Assembly: GCF_944387675.1 (NCBI RefSeq)
Contig: NZ_CALXFV010000008.1
Coordinates: forward strand, 1-36,992
Direction of reading: 5' to 3'
Origin: an uncultured Flavonifractor sp.
Lineage (GTDB): Bacteria; Bacillota; Clostridia; Oscillospirales; Oscillospiraceae
Length of the DNA: 36,992 bases
Both the position numbers and the translations under genes were made by a program. Below are positions 8,922 through 28,244 of this stretch, piece after piece (position 1 is the stretch's first letter; each line of letters starts with the position of its first letter). The notes below the pieces were generated by a model, which saw only the letters and a list, made by a program, of their open reading frames with translations, was not told the origin of the DNA and did no database searches.

Positions 8922-10378
8922 CAATGGGAAAACCAACCGGATTTATGGAATATCATCGTCAGGGAAATCCCTCCCAGCCGCCTCTGGAGCGCATCCGGCA
9001 CTACCGGGAGTTCCATCCGCGGCTGGGCCGGGAGGAGCGGCGGCGTCAGGGCGCCCGGTGCATGGAGTGCGGCATCCCCTTCTGTCAGTCTGGGGCGGTG
9101 CTGGGCGGCATGGTCTCCGGCTGTCCCTTGCGCAATCTGGTCCCTGAGTGGAACGATTTGATCTACACCGGCAACCTGGGCCATGCCCTGGACCGACTGC
9201 TGAAAACCAACAACTTCCCTGAATTTACCGGCCGGGTATGCCCCGCCCTGTGCGAGGCGGCCTGCACCTGCGGGCTTCACGGTGAGCCGGTCACCATCAG
9301 GGAAAATGAGCTGGGCATCATTGAGGAGGCCTGGGAGAAGGGCCTGATCCAACCCCACCAGCCCTCCATCCGGACGGGCAGGCGTGTGGCGGTGGTGGGC
9401 TCCGGCCCCGCCGGCCTGGCCTGCGCCGATCAGCTCAACCGGAGGGGCCATACCGTCACCGTCTTTGAGCGGGAGGACCGGCCCGGCGGCCTGCTCATGT
9501 ATGGCATTCCAAATATGAAGTTGGAGAAATCCGTCGTCCAGCGGCGGGTGGATCTGATGGCCGCCCAGGGCGTCACCTTCCGCACCGGCGCGGACGTGGG
9601 GCGGAACGTGGCGGCGGAGGAACTGAGGAAAGGGTTTGACGCGGTGGTGCTCTGCTGCGGCGCCTCTAAGCCCCGGGACCTGGACATTCCAGGCCGGGAG
9701 GCCGACGGGGTGTACTTTGCCGTGGATTTTCTCAAGGAGACCACCCGCGCTCTGCTCACCTCCGGATTGGACGGCGGAGGTCATCCCAGCGCCAGGGACA
9801 GACAGGTGGTGGTCGTCGGCGGCGGCGACACGGGCAATGACTGCGTGGCCACCTGTATCCGCCACGGCTGCGCCCATGTGGTCCAGCTGGAGATGCTGCC
9901 CAAACCGCCCGCAGCCCGGCGGGAGGATAACCCCTGGCCGGAGTGGCCCAGGGTATGCAAAACCGACTATGGACAAGAGGAGGCCATTGCCCTGTTTGGC
10001 CACGACCCCAGAATCTACCAGACCACCGTCACCGGACTGATTGCCGATGAACAGGGGAGCCTTCAGGGTGTCCAAACCGTCAGGCTGGACGGTGCGCTGA
10101 AGCCGATTCCCGGCACGGAAGCGGTGCTGGACTGCCAGCTGCTGCTCATTGCCGCCGGCTTCCTGGGTGCGCAGGAGTATGTACCCCAGGCCTTTGGAGC
10201 TGTGCTCACGCCACGCACCTGCGTCGGCACCGCCGCTGGCCAATATGCCACCAGTGTACCCGGCGTATTTACCGCCGGCGACATGCATCGGGGCCAATCC
10301 CTGGTGGTATGGGCAATCCGCGAAGGCCGGGAGGCCGCCCGTGAGGTGGACCACTACCTGATGGGATACAGCACCTGA
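8918..10378 (+). CDS. gltD: Glutamate synthase small subunit
   Basis: A 486-residue NAD(P)H-dependent small (beta) subunit of glutamate synthase that feeds electrons to GltB. Seen in order: an N-terminal iron-sulfur region with cysteines (RCMECGIPFCQSG and GRVCPALCEAAC), an FAD-binding Rossmann motif (VVGSGPAGLACA), an NAD(P)H-binding motif (VVVVGGGDTGNDC), and a C-terminal FAD motif (GVFTAGDMHRGQSLVVWAI). The start could be ATG 8918 or ATG 8924, two codons later; the GGTGGGGGA just upstream fits the second slightly better by spacing. Transcription ends at the hairpin beginning at 10388, convergent with the eut locus. Confidence 0.97.
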   Translation: MTMGKPTGFMEYHRQGNPSQPPLERIRHYREFHPRLGREERRRQGARCMECGIPFCQSGAVLGGMVSGCPLRNLVPEWNDLIYTGNLGHALDRLLKTNNFPEFTGRVCPALCEAACTCGLHGEPVTIRENELGIIEEAWEKGLIQPHQPSIRTGRRVAVVGSGPAGLACADQLNRRGHTVTVFEREDRPGGLLMYGIPNMKLEKSVVQRRVDLMAAQGVTFRTGADVGRNVAAEELRKGFDAVVLCCGASKPRDLDIPGREADGVYFAVDFLKETTRALLTSGLDGGGHPSARDRQVVVVGGGDTGNDCVATCIRHGCAHVVQLEMLPKPPAARREDNPWPEWPRVCKTDYGQEEAIALFGHDPRIYQTTVTGLIADEQGSLQGVQTVRLDGALKPIPGTEAVLDCQLLLIAAGFLGAQEYVPQAFGAVLTPRTCVGTAAGQYATSVPGVFTAGDMHRGQSLVVWAIREGREAAREVDHYLMGYST

Positions 10379-10387
10379 CCTGTCTTT

Positions 10388-10420
10388 GCCCCCGGGGCGG
10401 CCAGCCCCGGGGGCGTTTTC
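10388..10420 (+). terminator. gltD terminator
   Basis: An 11-bp GC-only stem (10388-10398 with 10404-10414), loop GGCCA, followed by GTTTTCG. It sits 10 bases after the gltD stop codon. Confidence 0.85.
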
Positions 10421-10440
10421 GCCCAGCAGAGGGCGGACAA

Positions 10441-10489
10441 GAGAAGGCCGGAGGCGGCCGCCTGCATCGGCGGCCGCCTCCGGCCTCTC
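10441..10489 (-). terminator. Long GC-rich hairpin between convergent transcripts
   Basis: A 17-bp perfect stem (10446-10462 with 10469-10485) extended by GAGA/TCTC gives about 21 bp closed by a six-base loop. On the minus strand it is followed by TTCTCTTGTCC, so it may end the riboswitch RNA. On the plus strand there is no T run, so its role there would be only a backup to the gltD terminator. Confidence 0.55.
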
Positions 10490-10554
10490 GGGGGTTGGTA
10501 AACCAACGGACTCCCCGCACACATCCAGCGGTGTGAGGAGCGCCGCTTACCACG

Positions 10555-10620
10555 AAAACGAAAACTGCACCCAAATGGGTGCAGCCATTGGGCCGCCGGC
10601 TACCGGCAGCCATTGCACCC
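10555..10620 (-). terminator. Riboswitch expression platform: terminator and antiterminator
   Basis: On the minus strand an 8-bp stem CTGCACCC/GGGTGCAG with loop ATTT (10565-10584) is followed by TTTTCGTTTTCG, a good intrinsic terminator. An upstream GGGTGCA (10614-10620) can instead pair with the TGCACCC of the terminator's 5' arm, enclosing a 9-bp hairpin. The two structures exclude each other, as expected for a transcription-controlling riboswitch. Confidence 0.75.
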
Positions 10621-10652
10621 TCTCTGGATCGGAGCGGATTGTTCGTGCGTCA

Positions 10653-10812
10653 TACGCAGGCAGGTATTCTGACTCAGGCATCCGGCGCAGCGCCCGCCTT
10701 CCCGGAGTTTCCTCCAGTGGCAACTGGGCGCCGCTTTGCCTATACAGCAACGGCATTGTGCGGGATTCTCACCCGCTTCCCTCTTACGTGCATAAGGATA
10801 TGCACCTGCGTA
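10653..10812 (-). ncRNA. Cobalamin (B12) riboswitch without a downstream gene
   Basis: This is a cobalamin riboswitch aptamer on the minus strand. The closing P1 stem is TACGCAGG (10805-10812) pairing with CCTGCGTA (10653-10660). Conserved blocks in order are AGAGGGAAGCGGGTGAGAAT, GCCACTGG, GGGAAGGC and the B12 box AGTCAGAATACCTGCC. It lies 72 bases after the eutQ stop, so it can only control RNA between here and the convergent gltD; no credible reading frame exists there. I infer a regulatory RNA comparable to EutX (Enterococcus) or Rli55 (Listeria). No convincing separate promoter was found upstream, so it may also be part of the eut transcript. Confidence 0.9.
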
Positions 10813-10884
10813 CCCATATGATTCATTTGTCGGGCCGCCGGCCGGCCCGCCCAACAGGGCGGGCCGGGACGGCGGACACGTTTT

Positions 10885-11322
10885 TTATGCCATCTCCTGC
10901 CAGTTGGCCGGATAGACAAAGTAGGCGTACCGGGCCTTGTCCGGCGTCTGGAAATGGATGTGGCTGCCCTTGGGGATGTAGATGATATCCCCGGGGCCGC
11001 CGGAGACAATGCGGCCGTCGATTTCAATCTCCAGCGTTCCGTCGATCACCATGTCGTACTCGTCATAGGTCAGGGTCCACTCAAAGCTGGTGTGATCCAG
11101 CTCCATGATCCCGCAGCCCATGCGGGGAGCCTCCTCCAGGGTGACCACGTCCTTCAGGCTGACGCCTTCCTGCTCAAACGGCTCGCACTTGACGGTGCTG
11201 GTCTTGATGCCGATGATGCCGCTGGGGTCCACCTGCCGCACAAAGCCGGGGCCGGACTTGCCGGTGGCCTCCTCCAGCACCTTGGTGACAATTTCACGGA
11301 TCAGTGCTTCGCTTACATTCAT
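10885..11322 (-). CDS. eutQ: EutQ-like cupin, short form
   Basis: A 145-residue cupin protein of the EutQ family. EutQ supports microcompartment assembly, and acetate kinase activity has been reported for the Salmonella protein. The cupin core is visible (YDEYDMVIDGTLEIEIDGR, GDIIYIPKGSHIHF). It is shorter than the ~230-residue enterobacterial EutQ: the large N-terminal region is replaced by an amphipathic helix (MNVSEALIREIVTKVLEEA) that resembles an encapsulation peptide. It is the last gene of the eut locus, 18 bases after eutH. The start ATG 11322 has AGGAGC about 8 bases upstream. Confidence 0.9.
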   Translation of the reverse strand: MNVSEALIREIVTKVLEEATGKSGPGFVRQVDPSGIIGIKTSTVKCEPFEQEGVSLKDVVTLEEAPRMGCGIMELDHTSFEWTLTYDEYDMVIDGTLEIEIDGRIVSGGPGDIIYIPKGSHIHFQTPDKARYAYFVYPANWQEMA

Positions 11323-14882: not shown

Positions 14883-15620
14883 TTAGCCCAGCTCCAGACG
14901 AATGCCCCGGTCCTTGGCGCAGTCCTTGGCCAGAGCGGTGAGAATGCATTTAGCCGGCAGGCGGATACAGGTCACCTTGGCCGCCGCGGCGTCGGAAACG
15001 TCCTTTTCCGTCAAAACCCGCTTCTCCAGCCGCAGTTCCCGCTCCTGACAGGCGCAGGGCGTGGGAGCAGGGGCGGACCGCTCCGCCCTCGGGCCGGATT
15101 CCCCGCAGCCGGCGAGAACATGCTCCAGATTGCTCTGGCTGCATATCACCGCGCCGGAGGCAGTCAGCAGGTTCAGATGGGCCTCCAGCGCCGCATAATA
15201 GGGCGCCGGCGCCGTGGTGGCATAGCGGTACAGCTCCACCTGCTCGGTGAGGATGTAGACTCGCTTTCCCATCAGAATGGCCTGGGAGGCCATGCGGGTG
15301 TAGGGCGTGTCGCAGATGCCCAGGGCCAGCTTGCTCAGCACGTCGTTGGTCAGCTGACACAGTACCACGCAGGACTGGGCGGACAGGTCCGCCACATCCT
15401 CCGGACGGCAGGCACAGGTGATGGCAAACCGCTCCTTCAGCGCGGCGTTGTCCAGCACCTGGGTGCAGCACTGGTCTTCCGTCTGACTCAGCACCAGCAG
15501 GCCGGGTTTCCCGGCGGGCTCACCGGCGGGGTCCTGCCCCGCATCCGCCGCCTCGCCGGCTGCCGCCAGCTTGGCCGCCACACGGGCCAGAATCTCGTCA
15601 ATGAGCTTGCTCTGCTCCAT
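14883..15620 (-). CDS. Ethanolamine-locus protein of unknown function
   Basis: A 245-residue protein that I recognise only as a type found in Firmicutes eut loci, without an assigned reaction. The first ~20 residues (MEQSKLIDEILARVAAKL) form an amphipathic helix like an encapsulation peptide, followed by a Gly/Ala/Pro-rich linker (about 22-38). The middle has alternating hydrophobic strands and helices (CVVLCQLTNDVLSKLALGI; GKRVYILTEQVELYRY; APYYAALEAHLNLLTASGA), a pattern reminiscent of a flavoprotein-like fold. The C-terminal segment ends in TEKDVSDAAAAKVTCIRL. It is Cys-rich for its size. It sits between eutJ and eutN; the start ATG 15620 follows GGAGGGAG. Confidence 0.75.
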   Translation of the reverse strand: MEQSKLIDEILARVAAKLAAAGEAADAGQDPAGEPAGKPGLLVLSQTEDQCCTQVLDNAALKERFAITCACRPEDVADLSAQSCVVLCQLTNDVLSKLALGICDTPYTRMASQAILMGKRVYILTEQVELYRYATTAPAPYYAALEAHLNLLTASGAVICSQSNLEHVLAGCGESGPRAERSAPAPTPCACQERELRLEKRVLTEKDVSDAAAAKVTCIRLPAKCILTALAKDCAKDRGIRLELG

Positions 15621-17935: not shown

Positions 17936-18223
17936 TTATTTCTCCAGAGAGGGCAGGATAAACTCCACCTCGTTGTGGGGGCGGGGAATCACGTGGACGC
18001 TGATCAGCTCGCCCACACGCTCGGCTGCCGCGGCACCGGCGTCGGTGGCAGCCTTCACGGCGCCTACGTCGCCGCGGACCATCACGGTGACCAGGCCGCC
18101 GCCCACATGGACCTTGCCGATGAGGGTCACGTTGGCCGCCTTCACCATGGCATCCGCCGCTTCAATGGAGGCTACGAGACCCTTGGTCTCGATCATACCC
18201 AGTGCCTGAGTCATAGTTGCCAT
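17936..18223 (-). CDS. eutM: EutM hexameric shell protein, second tandem copy
   Basis: A 95-residue single-BMC-domain protein of the EutM/PduA type that forms the hexagonal facets of the shell. The conserved pore region and helices are clear ([44 protein letters not shown]). It differs from the adjacent upstream copy in only four residues, all in the C-terminal twelve (Asn for Glu after RPH, and Ser, Glu and Lys in SLEK). Good AAAGGAG Shine-Dalgarno before ATG 18223. It probably arose by tandem duplication. Confidence 0.95.
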
Positions 18224-18252
18224 ATTGTATTACTCCTTTCGTTTTCCGTCTC

Positions 18253-18540
18253 TCAGCCGTCCAGACGGGGCAGAATGAATTCCACTTCCTCGTGGGGCCT
18301 GGGGATCACATGGACACTGATCAGCTCGCCCACACGCTCGGCCGCCGCAGCGCCGGCGTCGGTGGCGGCCTTCACGGCGCCTACATCACCCCGTACCATC
18401 ACGGTAACCAGGCCGCCGCCCACATGGACCTTGCCGATGAGGGTCACGTTGGCCGCCTTCACCATGGCGTCCGCCGCCTCAATGGAGGCCACCAGGCCCT
18501 TGGTCTCAATCATGCCCAGTGCCTGTGTCATAGTTGCCAT
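18253..18540 (-). CDS. eutM: EutM hexameric shell protein, first tandem copy
   Basis: A 95-residue BMC shell protein, nearly identical to the following copy at 17936-18223; it ends with RLDG. EutM is the major facet protein and its hexamer pore is thought to pass ethanolamine and ethanol. The sequence carries the family core ([30 protein letters not shown]). ATG 18540 is preceded by AAAGGA within the repeated element GAAAGGAATGGTC. It follows eutE by 43 bases. Having two copies in series should raise facet protein output or allow mixed hexamers. Confidence 0.95.
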
Positions 18541-25225: not shown

Positions 25226-26659
25226 TTACGTCACCACGTCCGCTTCAATCATTTGGTTTTTAAAATCGAAGGTCACGCAGGTACCCCAGGACCCTGATTC
25301 GATGGTCAGCTTGCCCCGCAGCTTGTCCTTCACCAGCGTCTGCACAATGGACAGGCCCAACCGGCTGTGTTCCGTGCTCTGGCTGTCAAAGCCGTTTCCG
25401 TTGTCGCTGACCTGGAGGCTGGAGTAGAGCTCTCCTTTCTTCACCGCAATGGTGATCAGGCCGGTATTCCGGCCTTCAAAGGCGTATTTCAGCGAATTTT
25501 GCAGCAGCTCGTTGATGATGATGGCCACCGAGGTGGCCACATCCGAGTCCACCTGGAAGTCGTCCCCCTCCACCGCAATGGTAACCAGGCAGTGGGGGTT
25601 GGAAAAGTACCGCATGGTGTTGTTCTTGATGTTGTTGATGACCTCTCCGATCATCACCTCGTCCACTCCCACCTGAGCCAGCAGCTCGTGAGTGCTGGCG
25701 ATGGAGAGGATGCGGTTCATGCTCTCTCCCAGCACCTGGCGGGTCTCCTCGCTGTCGGTGCGCCGCATCTGCAGACGCAGCAGGCTGGCAATGGTCTGGA
25801 GGTTGTTTTTCACCCGGTGGTGGATCTCCTTGATGGCCACCGACTTGAGAATCAGGGCCTTCTCCTGCTCCCGCCGCCAGGTTTCGTCCCGAATGATGAG
25901 GGCAAACTCCATGCCCGGGGCATTGAGCTGCACCCGCTTGATGTTCAGCACGTGCCGCCCCACCGTGATCTCCACAAAGGAGTAGCCCGCCACCTCTTCC
26001 GGCGGCTCCTCCTGGGAGATCAGGCGGATGTTTTCATAGGTCTGGCCCAGCAGATCCTCCACATATCCCAGCTTCTGATAGAGATCCCGGGCCAGAGAGT
26101 TGCAGAAGGTGACCACCCCGCTGCGGTCCACCATTACCAGCGCCTCATCAATGCACTCGGTCAGCCAGTTGTTTTCCGACACCATGCGGGTGAGCACACT
26201 GGCAATGTTTTCGTAGCTCTTTTGGGAAAAGTGGATGCGCTCGCTCACCAGATGCTGCTCGTCCACCCGCTTCTCCCGGATCAGCACCCCGATGATCCGC
26301 CCGCCGTGGCGGATGGGTTCCACCGATTGAATGGTGCTGCCGTTCTCCTGGGTGGTGGCCTTCATCTGCTTGGTCCCCACCCCCAAACGAAAGGTGCGGG
26401 CCACCGCCGGTTCGTTCTCCGCCTTGGCCAGCAGGCCCACCACCGAGTTCTTGTAGGAGGACGGCACGTCCTCCGGCTTGGCCTCCGCCACCACGATGGC
26501 GTCCCCGTCCCGGCGGGGACAGTCGATAAAAATATCCGCGTCCTCCAGATTCGCCAGGGGCTGGAGAATGGCAGAGGTATGCTCAATGACCCGAATCTCC
26601 TCATCCGAGAGGTCCGTATGTTTTCTGCACAGCTCCCAAATGGTGTCCACGCCGCTCAC
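25226..26659 (-). CDS. eutW: EutW sensor histidine kinase
   Basis: A ~477-residue cytosolic sensor kinase paired with EutV; in Firmicutes it autophosphorylates in response to ethanolamine. The N-terminal part (about 1-140) is an HTH-free sensory region with SYKNSVVGLLAKAENEPAVARTF, followed by a PAS-like domain (ECIDEALVMVDRSGVVTFCN). The HisKA_2 box (IKEIHHRVKNNLQTIASLL) carries the phosphoacceptor His, and the ATPase domain has NELLQNSLKYAF and DNGNGF. No membrane segment is seen. It begins with GTG 26659, overlapping the eutV stop by 4 bases. Confidence 0.94.
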   Translation of the reverse strand: MSGVDTIWELCRKHTDLSDEEIRVIEHTSAILQPLANLEDADIFIDCPRRDGDAIVVAEAKPEDVPSSYKNSVVGLLAKAENEPAVARTFRLGVGTKQMKATTQENGSTIQSVEPIRHGGRIIGVLIREKRVDEQHLVSERIHFSQKSYENIASVLTRMVSENNWLTECIDEALVMVDRSGVVTFCNSLARDLYQKLGYVEDLLGQTYENIRLISQEEPPEEVAGYSFVEITVGRHVLNIKRVQLNAPGMEFALIIRDETWRREQEKALILKSVAIKEIHHRVKNNLQTIASLLRLQMRRTDSEETRQVLGESMNRILSIASTHELLAQVGVDEVMIGEVINNIKNNTMRYFSNPHCLVTIAVEGDDFQVDSDVATSVAIIINELLQNSLKYAFEGRNTGLITIAVKKGELYSSLQVSDNGNGFDSQSTEHSRLGLSIVQTLVKDKLRGKLTIESGSWGTCVTFDFKNQMIEADVVT

Positions 26660-27240
26660 CCGCCGTTTTTGACCAGTATAATCTCCGCCACCCGGCGCAT
26701 GGAGAGATGCTTGTCCAAACTCAGCTTCCGAATGTAGTCGTAGGCCTCCTGCTCGGTCATCCCCTGCTCCTGCATGATGATGCCCTTGGCCTTTTCAATC
26801 ACGCTCCGGCTCTCCAGCCGCTCGGAGACCTTTGCCATGTCCTTCCGCAGCCGCTTGAGTTCCCGGCTGCGGGCCACCGCCAGCTCAATGCTGGGTACCA
26901 GCGACTTCTCGTCTATGGGCTTGACCAGATATCCGCTGACCCCGTAGCCCTTGGCCTGCTCCACAAACTCCCGCTCACTGTATGCCGTGAGCATGATGAT
27001 GGTATCGGCCAGCTCCTCCTCATAGATGATTTTCGCTGCGGAAATACCGTCCAAAAACGGCATCTTGATATCCAAAATTACCAGATCCGGATGATACAGC
27101 TTGCATTGCTCCACCGCATCAAACCCGTCCGACACCTCCGAAAGCACGGTGTAGCCGCCCTCGGACAGCAGCTCCTTCAGATCCATTCTGCTGATCGGCT
27201 CGTCGTCGGCAATGACGACGGAAATTCCATCCTTTCCCAT
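26656..27240 (-). CDS. eutV: EutV response regulator with ANTAR RNA-binding domain
   Basis: A 194-residue response regulator: receiver domain (about 1-122) with the acidic pocket (IADDEP), phosphoacceptor Asp57 (VILDIKMP) and Lys in GYLVKPID, then a short coiled coil and ANTAR domain (about 133-190; VIEKAKGIIMQEQGMTEQEAYDYI). In Enterococcus and Listeria phosphorylated EutV binds dual hairpins in eut leaders and stops terminators forming. Candidate targets in this window are the eutG, eutS and eutA leaders. All catalytic residues needed for phosphorylation look intact, unlike in the NitR-like protein at 3703. Confidence 0.96.
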   Translation of the reverse strand: MGKDGISVVIADDEPISRMDLKELLSEGGYTVLSEVSDGFDAVEQCKLYHPDLVILDIKMPFLDGISAAKIIYEEELADTIIMLTAYSEREFVEQAKGYGVSGYLVKPIDEKSLVPSIELAVARSRELKRLRKDMAKVSERLESRSVIEKAKGIIMQEQGMTEQEAYDYIRKLSLDKHLSMRRVAEIILVKNGG

Positions 27241-28179: not shown

Positions 28180-28244
28180 AAAAAGGCCCCTAGAATTTCT
28201 TGAATCGGTCATCCTTGAAATTCCAGGAGCTCCATCGCTCTGGG
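28180..28244 (-). terminator. eutS leader terminator with overlapping candidate ANTAR hairpin
   Basis: On the minus strand a 14-bp stem (5' arm 28217-28230, 3' arm 28186-28199, including two G-U type pairs) with a 17-base loop is followed by CTTTTTATG, a strong intrinsic terminator. Overlapping its 5' arm is a smaller hairpin (28223-28244) with stem GAGC/GCTC, extended by CCA/TGG after a bulge, and a six-base loop GATGGA. The two cannot form together. A further 7-bp stem (28253-28281) lies upstream, but has no six-base loop. No clear separate promoter was found. Confidence 0.7.

Follow-up and report, generated by a model that had tools for sequence, protein, structure and literature searches.

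A cobalamin riboswitch RNA without its own gene behind eutQ in Flavonifractor and related Clostridia, a candidate B12-gated decoy for EutV

The window, meaning the whole 36,992-nucleotide stretch analysed here, is one complete contig (G000:C8) of the 2.23-Mb draft genome of an uncultured Flavonifractor sp. On its minus strand, the eut genes run from eutG to eutS, eutP, eutV, and eutW and on to eutH and eutQ; ten proteins were scanned against Pfam, and the remaining gene names come from translations read by eye. Pfam recognizes both EutV and EutW, a pair whose presence in the eut locus is common to EutX/Rli55 systems. On the same strand, 3′ of eutQ, follow a cobalamin aptamer, a P13-like hairpin, an antiterminator, a terminator (T1), a long hairpin (T2), and then a hairpin adjoining gltD, which is convergent and ends at 10378, about 60 bases past T2 (Table 1). 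Elsewhere in the locus, two almost identical BMC-type shell-protein genes stand in tandem (17936-18540, minus strand), and a 245-amino-acid protein (14883-15620, minus strand), kept in relatives at 32 to 53% identity, has only a weak Flavoprotein match.

Table 1. Features of the window discussed in the text, with the relatives that carry a recurrent tail hairpin
Feature	Positions	Strand	Basis or remark
T2, long hairpin with hexaloop GAUGCA at 10468-10463; proposed EutV decoy loop and 3′ terminator	10444..10487	-	terminator-like hairpin scan
Hairpin CACAC-CGCUGGAU-GUGUG holding GCUGGA, weak EutV-type loop with closing C.U mismatch	10518..10535	-	by eye
Terminator T1, with T tail	10563..10586	-	terminator scan and 18-sequence covariation
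Antiterminator, arms 10620-10614 / 10583-10577	10577..10620	-	95.1% of cells paired
P13-like hairpin (anti-antiterminator), arms 10637-10632 / 10624-10619	10619..10637	-	18-sequence alignment; one G.A mismatch in window
Cobalamin aptamer RF00174	10642..10824	-	102 bits against gathering score 31.5, E 1.3e-24
eutQ, gene preceding the RNA	10885..11322	-	PF06249, E 1.1e-45
eutW, sensor kinase	25226..26659	-	PF12282, PF07568, PF02518
eutV, ANTAR response regulator	26656..27240	-	PF00072 and PF03861; matches 6wsh/6ww6
eutS leader hairpin GAGC-GAUGGA-GCUC, presumed EutV site	28227..28240	-	leader inspection
eutG leader hairpin GGAUGC-GAGGCA-GCAUCC, presumed EutV site P2	29580..29597	-	leader inspection
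eutG leader hairpin, loop GGUGCA, presumed EutV site P1	29607..29626	-	leader inspection
Tails with CUGCCA hairpin			L034, L035, L036, L037, L091, L121, L124, L125, L145, L147, L149, L153, L224

The initial annotation of this DNA, made from the sequence alone, had placed a complete B12 aptamer behind eutQ on the eut strand, with coordinates that prove accurate to about 10 bases. A search with the Rfam cobalamin model on the minus strand bears this out; the RF00174 match spans the entire model (positions 1 to 189) and is the only match in the window at Rfam gathering thresholds. At permissive thresholds, 18 more matches appear on 10380-10890, all far under their own gathering scores. RF01482, which we take to be the eut-class cobalamin riboswitch family, did not match anywhere in the genome of the window at E 0.001. 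The ligand is presumably AdoCbl, judging from the class I assignment of the aptamer as that class is described in the available text of PMC11477304.

The same annotation saw no gene in the region before gltD. Although mechanically called ORFs of 84 and 114 amino acids cross the post-aptamer region, this holds at the DNA level. Between the window and its closest relative, L090 (EutQ, 90%), the stretch after eutQ contains one-base indels; a conserved reading frame is therefore unlikely, and we rejected a small conserved protein behind the riboswitch on this ground.

A competing terminator and antiterminator had also been proposed, and both were found in an alignment of 18 platforms, two of which (G206_b and G287_b) come from other loci. 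In P13, 99.1% of cells are paired, with both-side changes in three of six pairs; for T1, the figures are 97.5% and six of nine. Taken together, the two helices have 98.1% of cells paired and both-side changes in 9 of 15 pairs. None of 500 shuffles reached both measures, and slid versions pair at 41 to 54%, while the count of further pair types is no higher than in shuffles. The antiterminator pairs throughout most of the alignment, yet covariation is absent from it, equal to its shuffles. This layout suggests a switch that would terminate transcription when the ligand is bound. A possible contact between L5 and L13 was looked at by eye; we make no claim for it.

Other Clostridia share this arrangement, among them members of Flavonifractor and Intestinimonas. 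When 300 family genomes were searched at the DNA level, four of them (G160, G206, G250, and G287) showed the same order, confirmed with Rfam, and a fifth, G003, has a 58-bit riboswitch match behind eutQ; these are five of the ten family genomes with a close eutQ (at least 68%). No riboswitch was seen in the stretches fetched from G198, G053, G056, and G030, and the contig of G282 ends inside eutQ. In a contig scan with an EutQ alignment, the best 80 of 92 loci were named, and 20 of these 80 have a riboswitch-profile match. We grouped 16 of the 20 with the window, since L110, L127, L134, and L138 look different. Twelve of the 16 sit 34 to 163 bases behind eutQ, L144 lies at about 0.76 kb, and L124 and L125 lie at about 2 kb; the L094 riboswitch is about 2.3 kb from eutQ, on the other strand. 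The contigs L144, L148, and L158 duplicate those of G250, G287, and G003. Behind the eutQ-linked RNA of G206 (L074:3112-8938), there is a second set of genes like eutV (36%, 43%), eutL, eutW (41%), eutB (53%), and eutC (56%).

What follows the RNA varies: gltD in the window, eutL in G287, and other genes, named by eye, elsewhere. The initial annotation had raised the possibility that the long RNA runs antisense across the end of gltD and thereby ties B12 supply to nitrogen assimilation, an idea to which the convergent gltD and its end about 60 bases beyond T2 lend themselves. This finds no support, given that a terminator-like T2 precedes gltD and that the region past the RNA differs in relatives while the loops described below stay, and we consider it very improbable. 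The changing neighbors bear as well on the notion of an ordinary cis-acting switch for a same-strand gene behind the tail, or, in the window, a remnant whose gene was lost. A gene read by eye as DUF2284 family does lie behind the tail in L130, L154, and L158, same-strand genes are also found there in L090, L124, L125, G206, and G287, and further RF00174 copies in the same genomes lie ahead of genes. Against this, the window and G160 have a convergent gene next, the tails of L130, L154, and L158 keep EutV-type loops, and P13 and T1 are kept by covariation, with loops that recur though the following gene changes. A cis role is thus unlikely, if less so than an antisense one, though it may operate in those relatives that have a same-strand gene behind the tail.

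If the RNA instead acts on EutV, its tail should resemble the sites that EutV is presumed to bind. Published ANTAR leader sites are dual hairpins, and a scan of 17 eut-locus sequences for tandem A1/G4 hexaloops gave 14 pairs, none in a riboswitch RNA and one in a leader (eutA of G206, L073 6339-6389). This outcome led us to look for the clade's own loop class, using 42 leaders from 19 loci (15 of eutG, 19 of eutS, and 8 of eutA). Single A1/G4 hexaloops occur 11 times in these leaders. The eutS leaders mostly have the form GAGC-GNNGNA-GCUC, in many preceded by a GNNGNYA heptaloop; L208, with AAUGUA, has the A1 form. The rule adopted, a hexaloop GNNGNA or heptaloop GNNGNYA on a stem of at least 4 bp with at most one GU pair, was drawn by eye from the leaders and from some tails already seen, and hence the test of the tails is not blind. 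Several rows of the data set are near duplicates (L124/L125, L147/L149, L078/L081, and L207/L209). There are 56 motif hairpins in 35 of the 42 leaders, compared to a shuffle mean of 3.6 (standard deviation, 1.9; maximum, 9; 300 runs) and 3 on the reverse strand. In a rule-free ranking of leader hexaloops, the combination G-G-A at positions 1, 4, and 6 comes first (41 of 183; the next has 8).

Fifteen tails, the window's included, contain 17 motif hairpins, distributed over 11 of them. Shuffles average 1.17 (standard deviation, 1.1; maximum, 5), random stretches from the same loci 1.69 (maximum, 7), and the reverse strand has 1. G-G-A at positions 1, 4, and 6 again ranks first without the rule (15 of 79 hexaloops), followed by 9 of the CUGCCA class. 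Four tails are without the motif at stems of at least 4 bp; in G250 and L153, the only such loops sit on 3-bp stems, and in L147 and L149 they are bulged only, as judged by eye. Five tails scanned after the rule had been set (L224, L094, L130, L154, and L158) hold eight motif hairpins together. The riboswitches that look different (L110, L127, L134, and L138) have none at stems of at least 4 bp, L138 having one at 3 bp, and 4 of 20 non-eut riboswitches of these genomes also have motif matches (5 in all). By motif counts, shuffles, rule-free ranking, later tails, and random stretches, the tail carries the loop class of its own clade's eut leaders. In L154 (2119-2183), two perfect GGCGCA-loop hairpins stand in a row between the riboswitch and the gene read as DUF2284.

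That clear A1/G4 hexaloops are missing from the window tail had been noted before and is confirmed here for stems of at least 4 bp; 4 of the 15 tails have one such hairpin each. The absence of these loops can be put down to the presumed EutV sites of the clade, which mostly use G1/G4/A6 loops. The second long hairpin that had been described behind the aptamer is T2, at the apex of which lies the one strong EutV-type loop of the window tail, a single loop against the paired hairpins of the published leader sites; this speaks against the decoy reading. T2 is terminator-like in one scan; in another, just a short stem within it is listed. The terminator-like hairpins in 32 fetched stretches number 126, of which two have a GNNGNA-class loop, the T2 hairpins of the window and of G160; in those stretches, the filter for terminators did not retain T2 from any other relative. 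Between the window and L090, the T2 stems have diverged, with the loops reading GAUGCA and GGUGCA. The L090 counterpart of the weak hairpin before T2 holds GGUGUA and was counted in the tail test; the window's own was not.

Of 17 riboswitch tails, 13 have another hairpin, whose stem varies but whose hexaloop is always CUGCCA, and C-rich segments (CACCUCU, for example) recur in several tails. One could therefore envision the tail as a small RNA that pairs with mRNAs and has nothing to do with EutV. However, the CUGCCA hairpin is absent from the window, L090, L093, and F. plautii C205 among these 17 tails, and one of the 42 eut leaders contains the complementary TGGCAG, for which reason pairing between this loop and the leaders was dropped; a base-pairing role would also leave the loop class shared with the leaders unexplained. 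We regard it as quite unlikely, somewhat more so than a cis-acting switch.

Whether EutV could accept G at position 1 can be approached from its structure. According to the available part of PMC8934654, G4 is the only base that EutV contacts specifically, A1 is uncontacted, and the minimal binding motif is a single hexaloop; G1 in the loop can thus be accepted. Aligned with chain 6wsh, with a residue numbering offset of two that was inferred, the window's EutV keeps the G4-contacting residues R142, K149, E160, and Y164, and has S, L, D, H, and S in place of K143, M172, N173, R175, and R177, which are described as touching the backbone, loop interior, or stem (PMC8934654, in the part available). 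These changes may go with the changed loops, or they may weaken the argument that G1 is accepted. EutV orthologues (66 to 98%) were found in 11 of the 14 genomes with a riboswitch near eutQ that were searched, and not in the drafts G307 (L130), G310 (L149), and G313 (L154). In G300, whose EutV is 98% identical, the leaders of both eutG and eutS contain the loop GAUGCA (L200).

The source of the transcript appears to differ within the group. In 16 of 18 riboswitch RNAs, TTGACA and TATAAT, spaced by 17 or 18 bases with 11 or 12 of 12 matches, end 11 to 28 nucleotides before the aptamer match. No promoter of its own was seen for the window RNA, the best candidate matching at 9 of 12 positions 157 nucleotides upstream, inside eutQ, or for that of L090 (best, 8 of 12). 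In both, the hairpin after eutQ has no T tract, and therefore the RNA is probably the 3′ untranslated region (UTR) of the eut transcript in these two genomes, a promoter of another kind being possible.

On computational evidence, we therefore favor, with a probability of roughly 0.7, a B12-gated noncoding RNA that would make ethanolamine use responsive to the B12 supply by titrating EutV. We imagine that with AdoCbl bound, P13 and T1 would form and the RNA would end at T1; at low AdoCbl, formation of the antiterminator would let transcription pass T1 and run to T2. The tail of this long RNA would display loops of the EutV type (in the window, GAUGCA at the apex of T2 and perhaps GCUGGA ahead of it), and these would bind active EutV and keep it away from the terminators that precede eutG, eutS, and eutA. 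Where the RNA would be the 3′ end of the eut transcript, as in the window and L090, the decoy would depend on EutV activity and appear only once the operon is on, a negative feedback. In the other relatives examined, the strong promoter would make the RNA independently.

The initial annotation had likened the RNA to EutX of Enterococcus faecalis and Rli55 of Listeria monocytogenes in both position and logic. The logic is supported, with a riboswitch RNA without a gene, a locus encoding EutV and EutW, and the clade's loop on T2. As described in the accessible portions of PMC5821096 and PMC7602753, those RNAs likewise have a B12 riboswitch with an early terminator, a noncoding tail with presumed EutV-binding hairpins, and a eut locus with EutVW. 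The position does not match, the Enterococcus RNA sitting between eutT and eutG (PMC5821096, as far as available) and this one after eutQ. Other differences are the aptamer, class IIb in EutX/Rli55 and class I here (PMC11477304, in the part available); the loops, A1/G4 there and mostly G1/G4/A6 here; the decoy loop, placed here on a terminator apex; and the constitutive promoter, of which no counterpart is visible for the window RNA. The comparison supports an RNA that would work like EutX but that we do not count as a member, since its loops and aptamer class differ and, in the window, no promoter of its own is seen. The leaders, in turn, resemble the ANTAR dual-hexaloop leaders (eut, nasF, and amiE) in having G4-loop hairpins adjoining terminators before eut genes (PMC3369931, in the part available), and differ in that position 1 is mostly G, position 6 is A, and P1 is often a heptaloop. 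With other terminator-controlled RF00174 riboswitches the RNA shares the aptamer and terminator/antiterminator platform, whereas in the window a structured tail takes the place of a cis-controlled gene.

It is possible, and we suggest it tentatively, that Clostridia assembled the decoy once more, from loops of another class and an aptamer of class I, and that in the window's lineage it became the 3′ UTR of the eut transcript, without a promoter of its own and with one hairpin, T2, that both ends the transcript and captures EutV, giving B12-gated negative feedback. Our confidence in this was lowered slightly because the promoter-less form comes from two genomes; an origin independent of EutX is plausible. 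If true, riboswitch-gated protein decoys arose in more than one form, and an operon under such restraint can itself carry the decoy in its 3′ UTR. A 2018 review, in its available text, describes Clostridium eut loci as having EutV but no obvious riboswitch and asks about EutX-like small RNAs elsewhere (PMC5821096). Our literature search, by titles and the openings of abstracts, brought up nothing recognizable as an EutX-like RNA in these Clostridia. The RNAs described here supply specific candidates from Flavonifractor, Intestinimonas, and related Clostridia, with a loop code that searches based on A1/G4 could miss.

The candidates include one in the genome of a cultured strain, F. plautii ATCC 29863 (G302), where a matching RNA stands at the start of contig C52 (L224). 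The F. plautii eutQ contig ends 93 bases after the EutQ match, and any linkage of L224 to eutQ is presumptive. The same genome has a further riboswitch RNA (L220, on C205). Its T1 is of the same type, it has a promoter of its own, and the one motif hairpin of its tail is a GGCGCA loop on a 3-bp stem; it is perhaps a second decoy RNA. On contig C164 (L225 and L186), a cobalamin riboswitch and a response regulator that shares 42% identity with EutV are divergently oriented, about 0.3 kb apart.
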